From Mucispirillum schaedleri (lineage in GTDB: Bacteria > Chrysiogenota > Deferribacteres > Deferribacterales > Mucispirillaceae), in assembly GCA_949287985.1 (NCBI GenBank), contig CASEIN010000038.1, positions 1 to 32,934 on the forward strand: a DNA stretch of 32,934 nucleotides, in the 5' to 3' direction. Below the pieces are notes generated by a model. The model did not search any database, was not told where the DNA came from, and saw only the letters and a list, made by a program, of their open reading frames with translations. Shown piece by piece: positions 17,306 through 30,526 of this stretch. Numbering within the stretch: the first letter of the stretch is position 1; every line of letters starts with the position of its first letter. Position numbers and translations under genes: made by a program.

Positions 17306-20236
17306 TTATGGATATGCCTCACCACAATCACAGTCACCCATAAGTTCCTTATAAACTTCAAGATTTAGTTTTTTTGATGTATAAGTATATTTATACCATT
17401 CTGGAACAGTTTGTGTGTCAGCATTAAAAATGTTTTTAAACTTATTTTTTAATATAAAGTTTTTCCATTTATCTATTGAATATTTAAAATTAACTGCATC
17501 AAATAAAAAGTCTTCCATCTTTGTAACACTGGAAATATTCCATTTAGATATATCTTGATTAAAATTTTCTGCACCAGAAAACATAGCAGTCATATCTTTA
17601 ACTTTAGATACATTCCAGCGGCTAATATCCTGATTAAATGATTTTGCTTCTTGAAACATTGATGACATATCCTCAACATTGGATACATCCCATTTACTAA
17701 TATCTTGATTAAATTTTTTTGCACCAGAAAACATTGATACCATAGATTCAGCTTTAGATACATTCCAGTTGCTTATATCTTCATTAAAATCAGTGTATGA
17801 AAAGGTAGAATAATATTCAGTAACATTAGAAACATCCCAGTTTTTTACACCTTTATATGATTTAAAATTTATATTATTAATTGTATATGCATAATATGTG
17901 TCAATACTTGTAACATCTGTAACATATCCAATAACATCAAAATAATGATTATCATTAGATCCATGATCACTTGTTGTTACAATACGCGGACTAAATACAA
18001 TACCTTCACCTACTATGTGGATAGGCTCCTTACCATTGTTTTTATGTGCCCATTTAGGAATATTTTTCATTCCAGAATTTGCAAATATTGTTTCATAAAC
18101 CATTGGTTCAGCAGGCTGCCAATCATCTAGATTTTGATTAAAACTCTTTGCATTCTGAAACATTCCTAAAACACGAAACATTTTTAATTTATAATATTCG
18201 CTAAACTTCCACTTATTTAATGGCTGGTTAAAGCTTTCTGCTCCTGCAAACATATTTGTAAAATCATGTACATGGCCAACATCCCATCTATTTAAAGGCT
18301 GGTTAAAATTTTTCGCCTGAGCAAATACGCCATGCATACTATTAACTCTTGATACATTCCAGCTGTTAATGTTTTGATTAAAGTTGTATGCTCTACCAAA
18401 CATTCCTTCCATGTATACTAATGACTTAGTATTCCACCTATTTAGTGGCTGATTAAAACTTTCTGCACCAAAAAACATACCATTCATAATTGAAACATTT
18501 TTTACATTCCACTTATTAATATTTTGATTAAACTTTTTTGCATATGCAAACATATACCCCATATACTTAATAGACTCTGTATTCCATTTATCAAGTGGCT
18601 GATTAAAGTTTTCTGCACCGCAAAACATTCCCGTAGTATTTTCTACTTTACTCATATCCCATGAATTAATATTTTGATTAAAAGATTTTGCATAGCCAAA
18701 CATAAAAGATGCATCTTCAACATTAGAGAAATCCCAGTTACCTATTGGAGAGTTAAAAAGCTCAACTTCATAAAATAAATATGAAACATTTTGCACACTA
18801 GAAGTATTCCACATACTTAAATCTTGATTAAATTTCTTTGCACTCCTAAGCATATCTCTCATGTTTACAACATTTGATACATTCCATTTTCCTATTGGCT
18901 GATTAAAGTTTTCAGCTTTATAAAACATAGCTCTCATATCTACTACATTTGATACATTCCAATTACTAATATCTTGATTAAAAGCTAATGCACCAGAAAA
19001 CATTTCATCCATATTTCTAACTTTGGAAACATTCCATTTACCAATATTTTGATTAAACTTTTCTGCACCAGAAAACATATAACTTGTATATTCTACACTA
19101 GATGTATCCCATTTACTTATATCTTGATTAAAGTTTTTAACATTCGAAAACATACTACGCATTATTATAACATTGCCAACATTCCACTTTGTAATGTCAC
19201 TTGCAATATTATCAATATCTGCAAACATTCCTTCCATATTTTCTACGCTTGATACATTCCAAGTGCTGATATTACCTTTAAAACTTACTGCATTACTAAA
19301 CATTTCTTCCATTGTAAGAACATTAGAAACATTCCAGTTTGATAAATCTGAATTAAACTTAACTGCTCTTTTAAACATAAAAGACATATTTTGCACGTTA
19401 GATACATTCCAATTATTCAAATTTTGATTAAAACTTTCTGTATCATAAAAAATTGCTTCCATATTAGTAACTTTTGAAACATTCCACTTATTTAAAGGCT
19501 GATTAAAAGATGATGCTCCTGCAAAAAGTGCAGTCATATTCTCTACATTAGATACATCTAAATTATTAATATTTTGATTAAAACTTTTTGCACCACGAAA
19601 CATACCAGCAAGACTTTTTACTTTAGGCATTTTCCATGCACCTATATCTTTATTAAAAGATAATGCTTCATGAAACATTTCTTCTACATCTTCTAGATTT
19701 ATAACATTCCATCTGCTAATATCTTGGTTAAAGCTTACTGCATTATTAAACATTTTATTCATATTTTTAACATTAGATACATTCCAGTTGCCAATAGGTT
19801 GATTAAAACTAACAGCAGATGAAAACATTGCCTCCATATCTTCAACATTTGAAACATTCCACCTGCCTATATTTTGATTAAAATCTACAGCAGCATAAAA
19901 CATATATGCCATATCTTTAACTTTTGAAACATTCCACCGGCTTATATCTTCATTAAAATTTTTAACATCAGAAAACATACTTCTCATATTTTCCACATTT
20001 GATACATTCCAAGAATCAATTCCTGAAAAATCCTCGCGTTGAGAATCTTCAAATAACTCACTCATATCTGTAATTAAACTTGTATCAATACTTGATAATT
20101 TGATACTCTCATCAATAATAAGGGCATACAATTCTTGTTTATCTTTTGGCTTATATTTGATAACATTTTTTGCATAAATATTTTGGATTGAAAAAAGAAA
20201 TAAAAATAATAATAAATAGATAAATATTTTTTTCAT
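17306..20236 (-). CDS. secreted BspA/DUF285-type repeat protein
   Basis: A 976-residue protein with a cleavable signal (KKIFIYLLLFLFLFSIQNIYA). Residues 82-656 are 23 repeats of exactly 25 residues, consensus xxMxxMFxxAxxFNQxIxxWNVSNV, with irregular copies on either side. A non-repeat segment (about 716-805) splits off a second block of four to five copies (806-929). The tail (930-976) ends with a cluster of cysteines, GDCDCGEAYP. These are DUF285 repeats, leucine-rich-repeat-like units found in surface proteins of Brachyspira, mycoplasmas and Bacteroidetes, often tied to adhesion. No lipobox, sortase signal or anchor helix is seen, so it is probably released or held by other means. Its own promoter lies at 20294-20322. 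Ribosome site AAGGGG. Confidence 0.88.
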   Translation of the reverse strand: MKKIFIYLLLFLFLFSIQNIYAKNVIKYKPKDKQELYALIIDESIKLSSIDTSLITDMSELFEDSQREDFSGIDSWNVSNVENMRSMFSDVKNFNEDISRWNVSKVKDMAYMFYAAVDFNQNIGRWNVSNVEDMEAMFSSAVSFNQPIGNWNVSNVKNMNKMFNNAVSFNQDISRWNVINLEDVEEMFHEALSFNKDIGAWKMPKVKSLAGMFRGAKSFNQNINNLDVSNVENMTALFAGASSFNQPLNKWNVSKVTNMEAIFYDTESFNQNLNNWNVSNVQNMSFMFKRAVKFNSDLSNWNVSNVLTMEEMFSNAVSFKGNISTWNVSSVENMEGMFADIDNIASDITKWNVGNVIIMRSMFSNVKNFNQDISKWDTSSVEYTSYMFSGAEKFNQNIGKWNVSKVRNMDEMFSGALAFNQDISNWNVSNVVDMRAMFYKAENFNQPIGKWNVSNVVNMRDMLRSAKKFNQDLSMWNTSSVQNVSYLFYEVELFNSPIGNWDFSNVEDASFMFGYAKSFNQNINSWDMSKVENTTGMFCGAENFNQPLDKWNTESIKYMGYMFAYAKKFNQNINKWNVKNVSIMNGMFFGAESFNQPLNRWNTKSLVYMEGMFGRAYNFNQNINSWNVSRVNSMHGVFAQAKNFNQPLNRWDVGHVHDFTNMFAGAESFNQPLNKWKFSEYYKLKMFRVLGMFQNAKSFNQNLDDWQPAEPMVYETIFANSGMKNIPKWAHKNNGKEPIHIVGEGIVFSPRIVTTSDHGSNDNHYFDVIGYVTDVTSIDTYYAYTINNINFKSYKGVKNWDVSNVTEYYSTFSYTDFNEDISNWNVSKAESMVSMFSGAKKFNQDISKWDVSNVEDMSSMFQEAKSFNQDISRWNVSKVKDMTAMFSGAENFNQDISKWNISSVTKMEDFLFDAVNFKYSIDKWKNFILKNKFKNIFNADTQTVPEWYKYTYTSKKLNLEVYKELMGDCDCGEAYP

Positions 20237-25221: not shown

Positions 25222-25635
25222 ATGAAAAAAATTATTTTAACTTTAGTAGTAACATTATTTGCATTTGCTGCATTTGCAAACGATATGCCTATTCAGCCTA
25301 ATCAATTGCCTGCTAATGCTCATTCTTTTGTTGCTTCAAAATTTGCTGGTGCTACTATTGTAGCAGCAAAAAAGGACAGAGACAGCTATGAAGCAGCACT
25401 TAGTAATGGAACAAAAATTGATTTTGCATTAAATGGTGAATGGGATAGCATAGAATCATATTCTGTTTTACCTGCTGGCATTTTACCAGCACCTGTTGAA
25501 GCTGCTGCTAATGCTCAAGGTGGTAACATTGTTAAAATTGACAGAGATTTCGGATATTTTGAAGTTAAATTACAAAACAATGTAGAATTAAAAATTGATA
25601 ACAATGGTAACATTTTAAAAAGAGAAATTGATTAA
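25222..25635 (+). CDS. PepSY-like periplasmic protein, type A, copy 1
   Basis: A 137-residue exported protein: signal peptide KKIILTLVVTLFAFAAFA (cleavage near AFA-ND), then two copies of a PepSY-like (DUF2874, BLIP-fold) unit. Unit one has QLPANAHSFVASKF, a YEAALSNG strand and NGEWDSIES. Unit two has LPAGILPAPVEAAANA, YFEVKLQNNVELKID and NNGNIL. The LP start, hydrophobic helix and tyrosine-strand-NG-hairpin pattern define the family. No enzyme motif; related proteins are thought to bind or inhibit others. About 80% identical by eye to the gene at 26695. Ribosome site AAGGAGTGT. Confidence 0.85.
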   Translation: MKKIILTLVVTLFAFAAFANDMPIQPNQLPANAHSFVASKFAGATIVAAKKDRDSYEAALSNGTKIDFALNGEWDSIESYSVLPAGILPAPVEAAANAQGGNIVKIDRDFGYFEVKLQNNVELKIDNNGNILKREID

Positions 25636-25972: not shown

Positions 25973-25998
25973 TGTAACCAGAAAATAAATAGTGCGAC
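25973..25998 (+). promoter_or_regulatory. ECF-type promoter candidate of the first type B gene
   Basis: TGTAAC (25973-25978)-16 bp-CGAC (25995-25998), then ATAAAG nine bases further (26008-26013). The same three blocks with identical spacing precede 26695 and 27311. Confidence 0.65.
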
Positions 25999-26054
25999 CT
26001 ATAAAACATAAAGAACGTTTTGGTATATAGAAAATACCTATAAGGAGTGTAAAA

Positions 26055-26477
26055 ATGAAAAAAATTTTAGTTTTAACTTTTGCTTTTGTAATGACAGCAG
26101 GAATGGCTTTTGCTGATATGATGGTTGCACCTAATGCTTTACCTGGTAAAATTACTCAATTTGTAAATGCTAACTTTCCAGGTGCACAAGTAATGTATGC
26201 TGAAAGAGATTATGACAGCTTTGAAGTTAAATTAAACACTGGTGTTGAACTTGATTTTTATGTTAATGGCGACTGGAAAGAAGTAAAAACATTCCAAAAT
26301 TTTCCAACACAAATTTTACCTGCTGCTGTAGCTCAGGCAGTAAAAAGTGCTCACCCACAAGCTTTTATTATTAAAGCTGAAAAAACTTGGAATGGTTATG
26401 AAATTAAAACTAGCAACATGATGGAAATATATGTTACTCCAAATGGCCAGATTATGGGACAAAAATTTGATGATTAA
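26055..26477 (+). CDS. PepSY-like periplasmic protein, type B, copy 1
   Basis: A 140-residue exported protein with signal KKILVLTFAFVMTAGMAFA (cut before DMMV) and two PepSY-like units. Unit one: ALPGKITQFVNANFPGAQVM, DSFEVKLNTGVELDF, NGDWKEVKTFQ. Unit two: FPTQILPAAVAQAVKSAHPQ, NGYEIKTSNMMEIYV, PNGQIMGQ. About 90% identical by eye to 27311, and only broadly similar to type A. Ribosome site AAGGAGTGT. Preceded by the ECF-type module. Likely periplasmic; partner unknown. Confidence 0.85.
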   Translation: MKKILVLTFAFVMTAGMAFADMMVAPNALPGKITQFVNANFPGAQVMYAERDYDSFEVKLNTGVELDFYVNGDWKEVKTFQNFPTQILPAAVAQAVKSAHPQAFIIKAEKTWNGYEIKTSNMMEIYVTPNGQIMGQKFDD

Positions 26478-26497
26478 TCCTTCATTTGCATAACCCC

Positions 26498-26534
26498 AAA
26501 AGCCGTTGATTATTCAACGGCTTTTCTTTTTTTT
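26498..26534 (+). terminator. terminator of type B copy 1
   Basis: AAAAGCCGTTGA (26498-26509) pairs with TCAACGGCTTTT (26514-26525), loop TTAT, followed by C and eight T. Confidence 0.9.
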
Positions 26535-26621
26535 ATTTCACATACTTTAAAATATATTTTTATGTAAAATTATTACAATATTATATAACTTATTGAAATA
26601 AAAAATTTTTTTTGTATTTTT

Positions 26622-26647
26622 TGTAACCATTTTTTTTTATAAACGAC
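26622..26647 (+). promoter_or_regulatory. ECF-type promoter candidate of the second type A gene
   Basis: TGTAAC (26622-26627)-16 bp-CGAC (26644-26647), ATAAAG at 26657-26662. Start codon 51 bp from CGAC. Confidence 0.65.
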
Positions 26648-26694
26648 ATTTAATATATAAAGCAAATGGTATAAATATACCAAAGGAGTGTATC

Positions 26695-27108
26695 ATGAAA
26701 AAAATTATTTTTACTTTAGTAGTATCATTATTTGCATTTAGTGCTTTTGCAAAGGATATGCCTATCCAACCAAACCAGCTGCCTGCAAATGCACAGTCAT
26801 TTATTGCATCTACTTTTGCTGGGGCTAATATTGTAGCAGCTCAAAAAGATCTTGATGGGTTTGAAGCAGCTCTTAATAATGGTGTCAAAGTCAAATTTGA
26901 ATTAAATGGTCAATGGGATAGTATTGAGTCTTATTCTGCTTTACCTGCAGGTATTTTACCAGCACCTGTTGAAGCTGCTGCTAATGCTCAAGGTGGAAAT
27001 ATTGTTAAAATTGACAGAGATTTTGGATACTTCGATGTAAAATTACAAAATAATATTGAGTTAAAAATTGATAATAATGGTAAAATATTAAAAAAAGAAC
27101 TTGATTAA
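26695..27108 (+). CDS. PepSY-like periplasmic protein, type A, copy 2
   Basis: A 137-residue paralogue of the gene at 25222, the same length with no gaps. Most of the roughly 24 differences lie in the signal peptide and first unit, while PAGILPAPVEAAANAQGGNI and following residues are nearly unchanged. That suggests stronger constraint on the second unit. Signal KKIIFTLVVSLFAFSAFA. Preceded by the ECF-type module, which copy 1 lacks, so the two copies probably respond to different signals. Ribosome site AAAGGAGTGT. Confidence 0.85.
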   Translation: MKKIIFTLVVSLFAFSAFAKDMPIQPNQLPANAQSFIASTFAGANIVAAQKDLDGFEAALNNGVKVKFELNGQWDSIESYSALPAGILPAPVEAAANAQGGNIVKIDRDFGYFDVKLQNNIELKIDNNGKILKKELD

Positions 27109-27129
27109 TACTTCACTACCATTACTTTT

Positions 27130-27162
27130 AAAAACTACCTGTAATATGCAGGTAGTTTTTTT
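27130..27162 (+). terminator. terminator of type A copy 2
   Basis: AAAAACTACCTG (27130-27141) pairs with CAGGTAGTTTTT (27149-27160), loop TAATATG, with further T residues. Confidence 0.9.
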
Positions 27163-27229
27163 CGCATAAGTTTCTTAATATAAAAAAATACTACAAAAAA
27201 ATAATAAATAGTGTATATTAAAAAAATAT

Positions 27230-27255
27230 TGTAACCATATTCAAATATATACGAC
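27230..27255 (+). promoter_or_regulatory. ECF-type promoter candidate of the second type B gene
   Basis: TGTAAC (27230-27235)-16 bp-CGAC (27252-27255), ATAAAG at 27265-27270. Start codon 59 bp from CGAC. Confidence 0.65.
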
Positions 27256-27310
27256 ATAGTATATATAAAGTATAAATAATATAAAAAAATTTAATATTAA
27301 GGAGATTAGA

Positions 27311-27733
27311 ATGAGAAAGATTTTAGTTTTAACTTTTGGTTTTGTTATGATGGCAGGAATGGCTTTTGCTGATATGATGGTTGCACCAAATGCTTTACCT
27401 CCAAAAATTACTCAATTTATCAATGCAAACTTTGCAGGTGCTCAGATTATGTATGCAGAGCAGGACTTTGATAGTTTTGAAGTTAAATTAAATACTGGTG
27501 TTGAACTTGATTTCTATGCTAATGGCGACTGGAAAGAAGTAAAAACTTACCAAAACTTCCCTACTCAAATTTTACCTGCTGCTGTAGCTCAGGCAGTAAA
27601 AAATGCTCACCCACAAGCTTTTATTGTTAAAGCTGAAAAAACTTGGAATGGCTATGAAATAAAAACTAGCAACATGATGGAAATATATGTTACTCCAAAT
27701 GGTCAAATTATGGGACAAAAATTTGATGATTAA
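27311..27733 (+). CDS. PepSY-like periplasmic protein, type B, copy 2
   Basis: A 140-residue near-copy of the gene at 26055 (about 13 substitutions, no gaps), with signal RKILVLTFGFVMMAGMAFA. The final 34 residues are identical to copy 1, consistent with recent duplication or gene conversion. It completes the A-B-A-B order. Preceded by the ECF-type module. Ribosome site AAGGAG. Convergent with the chemoreceptor gene. Confidence 0.85.
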   Translation: MRKILVLTFGFVMMAGMAFADMMVAPNALPPKITQFINANFAGAQIMYAEQDFDSFEVKLNTGVELDFYANGDWKEVKTYQNFPTQILPAAVAQAVKNAHPQAFIVKAEKTWNGYEIKTSNMMEIYVTPNGQIMGQKFDD

Positions 27734-30103: not shown

Positions 30104-30526
30104 ATGAAAAGTTTTTTTATTATTTTATCTTTAATGATAGTATCTTTTAGCTACTGTTATGCTGATATGGTTGTAAGTTTCGATAAACTACCTAACAATA
30201 TTAAATCATTTGTTAAAACATATTTCCCCAGTACTGTTGTTATGTTTGCAGAGCAGGATTACAATGAGTATAAAATACGTATAAATAGTGGTGCAGAAAT
30301 AGAATTTGATATAAATGGTGCATGGAAGGAAGTAAAATCATTTCAAAATTTTCCAATAGAAATTTTACCTAAAAATATTATTAAAGAATTAAAAAAGCAA
30401 TTTCCATCAGCTCGTATAATCAAAGTAGAACGAATATGGAATGGGTATGAAATAAAGCTTAGTAATATGACAGAAATTTTCATTGATAATAGTGGAAAAA
30501 TAAAAAAATTTGAATATGATAACTAA
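30104..30526 (+). CDS. PepSY-like periplasmic protein, divergent type B
   Basis: A 140-residue relative of the type B proteins, about half identical by eye and the same length. Signal KSFFIILSLMIVSFSYCYA, then KLPNNIKSFVKTYFPSTVVM, NGAWKEVKSFQNFP and WNGYEIKLSNMTEIFI. It is separated from the main array by the chemoreceptor gene and has a sigma70-like rather than an ECF-like upstream region. It looks like an older duplicate. Its stop codon directly abuts the stop of the convergent lipoprotein gene. Confidence 0.82.
   Translation: MKSFFIILSLMIVSFSYCYADMVVSFDKLPNNIKSFVKTYFPSTVVMFAEQDYNEYKIRINSGAEIEFDINGAWKEVKSFQNFPIEILPKNIIKELKKQFPSARIIKVERIWNGYEIKLSNMTEIFIDNSGKIKKFEYDN

Follow-up and report, generated by a model that had tools for sequence, protein, structure and literature searches.

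What factor reads the short blocks that precede three PepSY_like genes of Mucispirillum schaedleri, and which other genes does it control? The genes lie in a 32,934-nt stretch of DNA (the window) that is contig C38 of a draft genome of 2.44 Mb and ~30% G+C. The blocks, TGTAAC-N16-CGAC-N9-ATAAAG, are present in the window in exactly three copies (positions 25973-26013, 26622-26662, and 27230-27270), with ~0 expected, and precede three of the five PepSY_like genes of the window (genes 26055, 26695, and 27311) with identical spacing, as a sequence-only reading had reported. The spacers of the three copies are dissimilar. The shorter pattern TGTAAC-N15..17-CGAC is likewise found three times, versus 0.02 expected from shuffles of the window.

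The assignment of the three downstream genes to a PepSY-like family, and the sharing of the motif by type A and type B genes, are both borne out. In particular, all five PepSY_like proteins of the window match PF11396 at 63-82 bits, against a Pfam gathering cut-off of 28.3, with E values of 3e-17 to 4e-23 for the three proteins encoded behind the blocks; solved relatives of the 26055 protein include 3db7; and both type A genes, 26055 and 27311, and the type B gene 26695 have the site (Table 1). The signal-peptide-like N termini of the proteins were called by inspection. The site is absent upstream of paralogues 25222 and 30104, and is absent too before the orthologues of 30104. Upstream of 25222, a TGTAAC is left without CGAC, and is perhaps a decayed promoter.

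Table 1. Features of the PepSY_like cluster, in window coordinates.
Feature	Position	Strand	Remark
Putative ECF-type promoter of PepSY_like gene 26055	25973..25998	+	Exact match; orthologous site kept in other Mucispirillum species
Promoter elements, gene 26055	-35 TGTAAC 25973-25978; -10 CGAC 25995-25998	+	Predicted transcription start ~26004-26006
ATAAAG block, first leader	26008..26013	+	PepSY-specific, not a promoter element
Putative ECF-type promoter of PepSY_like gene 26695	26622..26647	+	Exact match; kept in other species
Promoter elements, gene 26695	-35 TGTAAC 26622-26627; -10 CGAC 26644-26647	+	
ATAAAG block, second leader	26657..26662	+	
Putative ECF-type promoter of PepSY_like gene 27311	27230..27255	+	Exact match; kept elsewhere, with rare one-base variants
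Promoter elements, gene 27311	-35 TGTAAC 27230-27235; -10 CGAC 27252-27255	+	
ATAAAG block, third leader	27265..27270	+	
PepSY_like paralogue, type B, without ECF site	25222..25635	+	PF11396, E 9e-18
PepSY_like type A, 140 aa, signal-peptide-like N terminus	26055..26477	+	PF11396, E 4e-23
PepSY_like type B, 137 aa, signal-peptide-like N terminus	26695..27108	+	PF11396, E 3e-17
PepSY_like type A, 140 aa, signal-peptide-like N terminus	27311..27733	+	PF11396, E 3e-23
PepSY_like paralogue without ECF site	30104..30526	+	PF11396, E 3e-22

The home genome was scanned by pattern, and selected stretches were read. The scan with TGTAAC-N15..17-CGAC revealed 11 matches, comprising 3 inside coding sequence and 8 intergenic sites, each of the latter close upstream of a co-directional gene: the 3 PepSY_like genes, 2 genes for secreted proteins, 1 for a membrane protein, 1 for a lipoprotein, and an ECF sigma gene. 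A reversed-pattern control gave 9 matches versus these 11, so that the raw count alone is unimpressive; this control was dropped as misleading, because the reversed pattern is without CpG, which is rare here, and a wrong-spacing control (N20-22), which gave 1 match, was used instead. Across ten Mucispirillum genomes, 76 sites have the N15-17 spacing versus 8 with N20-22. Classification of 69 of the 76, counted by reading the table, placed 52 upstream of a co-directional gene, 14 inside genes, and 3 with no gene in reach, and the 7 unclassified sites are identical or near-identical in sequence to matches inside genes; the promoter-position figure is thus at least 52/76, as compared with 0/8 for the wrong-spacing matches. 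The possibility raised with the original observation, that the motif occurs at random frequency, is answered by both spacing and position. Orthologous sites are inherited rather than independent, so these counts are a sign of constraint and should not be taken for probabilities.

Two bases outside the search pattern are also constrained: the base after TGTAAC is a pyrimidine in 35 of 35 upstream N16 sites, and 34 of these sites have a purine before CGAC. A search with TGTAACY-N13..15-RCGTC yielded 8 further-variant matches, of which 6 precede orthologues or relatives of regulon genes, giving the consensus TGTAACY-N14-RCGWC.

The site persists across species. In the other Mucispirillum genomes, the ATG of most readable PepSY_like orthologues is preceded at 71-83 nt by TGTAAC-N16-CGAC, and the spacers are unrelated from species to species, which argues for constraint and not recent copying, as had been proposed from the window alone. 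One-base departures occur before some orthologues (CAAC in genome G006, AGAC in G005, and ATAACC in G004). In a sister genus (G011), an exact site precedes both PepSY_like genes, at 84-87 nt. Among 40 genomes, PepSY_like genes over the Pfam cut-off are confined to Mucispirillum and G011, the same two genera whose ECF1 gene (see below) bears the site.

The ECF sigma gene with a site before itself, which the sequence-only reading had suggested looking for, is located on contig C44 and encodes a 186-aa protein, here ECF1, having regions 2 and 4 only (Pfam Sigma70_r2 and r4_2, both over cut-off). ECF1 has an orthologue in 10 of 10 Mucispirillum genomes (84-100% identity; 85-99% in named Mucispirillum MAGs), in each of which TGTAAC-N16/17-CGAC lies 59-67 nt upstream of the gene; the G011 gene has the variant TGTAAC-N16-CGTC. 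The closest solved sigma factor is E. coli sigma-E, CnrH is a remote sequence match, and no NCBIfam SigX model scores over cut-off. The operon runs from the sigma gene to a gene for a 257-aa single-TM protein, followed by one for a membrane-anchored, LTPDQ-containing protein of 220 aa (Spy/CnrX-like). The single-TM protein is anti-sigma-like and is encoded directly downstream of ECF1 in all species read; no Pfam or NCBIfam anti-sigma model matches it over cut-off. The Mucispirillum LTPDQ protein matches no Pfam family, and a fold search with its low-confidence model gave no match below E 0.5; a homologue from a more distant member of the taxonomic order scores above the cut-off for LTXXQ and below it for Metal_resist.

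A second ECF sigma gene, RpoE-like and located on contig C75, has the upstream sequence GAAC...TCT and no TGTAAC/CGAC site. By inspection, the next genes encode an anti-sigma-like protein that bears a zinc motif, H-x3-C-x2-C, and a protein resembling RseB, and the C75 operon is probably the true sigma-E system of the organism. On the basis of this different upstream sequence, and of the site before ECF1, we assign TGTAAC...CGAC to ECF1. As judged from sequence, TGTAACY-N14-RCGWC is very probably the promoter of this one sigma factor, which would thereby govern an autoregulated regulon of exported and envelope proteins.

Members found repeatedly across species comprise the ECF1 operon, PepSY_like genes of types A and B, and genes for Pro-rich secreted proteins, lipoproteins, a ~180-aa secreted protein (PISLTxPLSFNGTYEVERLIIRN), a ~170-aa membrane protein (ELKNExTNDVKKxNHGINxFLL), and a probable beta-barrel protein (EDMWINLGYxY). 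Single cases of an ECF-type site precede an RND efflux adaptor gene (G005:C18:46885) and a chemoreceptor-like gene (G004:C51:858). By inspection, nearly all products appear exported or membrane-bound. The initial proposal of a dedicated envelope-stress-type regulon of duplicated periplasmic proteins is supported as regards a sigma factor of its own and exported or envelope targets, and is to be widened beyond the PepSY genes. The label "envelope-stress-type" is one that we infer from gene products and operon layout.

The third block has a different status. ATAAAG occurs at 8 of 15 Mucispirillum PepSY sites versus 0 of 38 other rows (which include 2 sister-genus PepSY sites and 1 coding match), and this confinement indicates that it belongs to the PepSY leader and not, as first described, to the promoter module. 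The distinction bears on an alternative reading of the locus, in which the blocks are a site for an activator or two-component regulator placed over a housekeeping sigma-70 promoter having TATAAA or ATAAAG as its -10 element. AT-rich, TATAAA-like words do follow CGAC in the PepSY leaders; however, ATAAAG is missing from the other regulon genes, and the Shine-Dalgarno sequences of the genes for the beta-barrel and 180-aa secreted proteins start 11-13 nt after CGAC, too near for a downstream sigma-70 -10 element and start. This geometry leaves CGAC itself as the -10 element, and a start by an ECF sigma factor 6-8 nt beyond it would fit. A sigma factor also accounts better for the strict spacing of 16-17 nt and for the presence of the site ahead of an ECF gene, and we consider a regulator over a sigma-70 promoter improbable.

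Reading of the promoter by the RpoE-like C75 sigma factor, or by both ECF sigma factors, is just as improbable. ECF -35 elements commonly share AAC, and both proteins are ECF sigma factors, so the AAC of the -35 element would suit either; but the C75 gene has upstream of it a classical sigma-E-style GAAC...TCT without TGTAAC/CGAC, and none of the genus matches listed adjoins an orthologue of the C75 sigma gene. Least credible, to the point of being negligible, is chance combined with recent duplication, by which the upstream regions would be alike only through gene copying: the genes are indeed adjacent paralogues, but the spacers are dissimilar, and the blocks stand before unrelated genes, in other species, and in the sister genus. 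Chance, duplication alone, and a sigma-70 promoter with ATAAAG as its -10 element were accordingly all rejected.

Regulation by ECF1 could proceed as follows. Region 4 of the sigma factor would recognize the -35 word TGTAAC and region 2 the -10 word CGAC, with transcription predicted to start ~6-8 nt after CGAC. The membrane anti-sigma factor, together with the LTPDQ protein, would hold ECF1 inactive until an envelope signal on the periplasmic side, probably acting via the LTPDQ protein, frees it; freed ECF1 would then transcribe its own operon and the genes for periplasmic proteins, lipoproteins, and outer-membrane proteins, including the three PepSY_like genes of the window. The sequences show directly where the sites lie, how they are spaced and conserved, and that a sigma gene has one of its own; we infer that ECF1 binds them, where transcription starts, that the single-TM protein acts as an anti-sigma factor, and that an envelope signal is involved.

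The proposed system has parts in common with several known ones. The words TGTAAC...CGAC agree with the Bacillus subtilis SigX promoter consensus that PMC8024623 gives after Huang and Helmann 1998, tgtAACnww / CGwCww, in line with the resemblance noted at the outset. SigX is alike in its -35 and -10 words, comparable spacing, autoregulation, and cell-envelope targets, whereas Mucispirillum belongs to another phylum, Deferribacterota, and has a Gram-negative-type envelope and other target genes. The CnrH/CnrY/CnrX system of Cupriavidus metallidurans resembles the ECF1 operon in having, in neighbouring genes, an ECF sigma factor, a small single-TM protein (in the ECF1 operon a putative anti-sigma factor) without a zinc motif, and a membrane-anchored periplasmic protein with an LTxxQ-like motif; unlike CnrY, the putative anti-sigma factor of the ECF1 operon has 1-5 repeated units. 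A CnrYXH-like layout is plausible, given the LTXXQ match of the distant LTPDQ homologue and the remote similarity of ECF1 to CnrH; the gene order of the ECF1 operon departs from CnrYXH. RpoE/RseA/RseB likewise combines an ECF sigma factor, a membrane anti-sigma factor, a periplasmic partner, and envelope targets, but ECF1 promoters are TGTAAC...CGAC, the third gene of the ECF1 operon is not RseB-like, and it is the separate C75 operon that resembles the RpoE system. The window PepSY_like proteins are clear members of the family of solved Bacteroidales-type periplasmic proteins of PF11396 (3db7, 3due), differing in that the Mucispirillum copies form a paralogue cluster, most of it under an ECF promoter.

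An autoregulated ECF regulon is a well-known type of system; an anti-sigma factor with 1, 3, or 5 units is unusual. In the home species, as in its nearest relative, the putative anti-sigma gene (L024:4067-4840; G000:C44) encodes five tandem helix-pair units, each unit being YNEENIETLLxSLK...DFTxxVMxRIK, ~40 aa in two helices. The alignment also covers five other Mucispirillum species, which have three units, and the sister genera, which have one and align through the membrane-proximal unit alone. Comparison of the gene with itself shifted by 243 bp gives 221 identical bases of 270, indicating recent internal duplication. The structure model is of low confidence and contains regular helix pairs and a TM helix only. 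The class II anti-sigma factor CnrY binds its sigma factor with two helices (PMC7406223), and each unit could by this precedent be one binding module. A tentative and rather doubtful extension is that the anti-sigma factor is multivalent, each unit binding one ECF1 in the manner of CnrY, with copies having grown from 1 (sister genera) to 3 and 5 (Mucispirillum), and that it would thereby store several sigma molecules and sharpen or buffer the PepSY/envelope switch. A growing array of units that probably bind sigma could point to a new means of tuning a sigma switch.

Mucispirillum is a mucus-dwelling gut bacterium linked to inflammation. The analysis provides a promoter, a sigma factor, and a list of genes that can be tested in it, and places PepSY_like proteins under a putative stress-type sigma factor. 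A search of the open literature yielded no account of a Mucispirillum ECF regulon; in the genome paper (PMC5285517), PepSY and anti-sigma had no match, and the displayed ones among 3 matches to "sigma" refer to a chemical supplier.

The leaders and the rest of the window provide minor observations. A leader hairpin was considered (25999-26054, 26648-26694, and orthologues) and not adopted: only the 26695 leader beats most shuffles (z ~-2), the others giving ~0 and +1. Several type A PepSY leaders have a short inverted repeat before the Shine-Dalgarno sequence, GGTAT..ATACC, or AGGTT..AACCT elsewhere. No Rfam families were found in the window. On the minus strand, positions 17306-20236 encode a 976-aa exported protein with many WNVSNVxxMxxMF repeats, which is BspA/DUF285-like by inspection.
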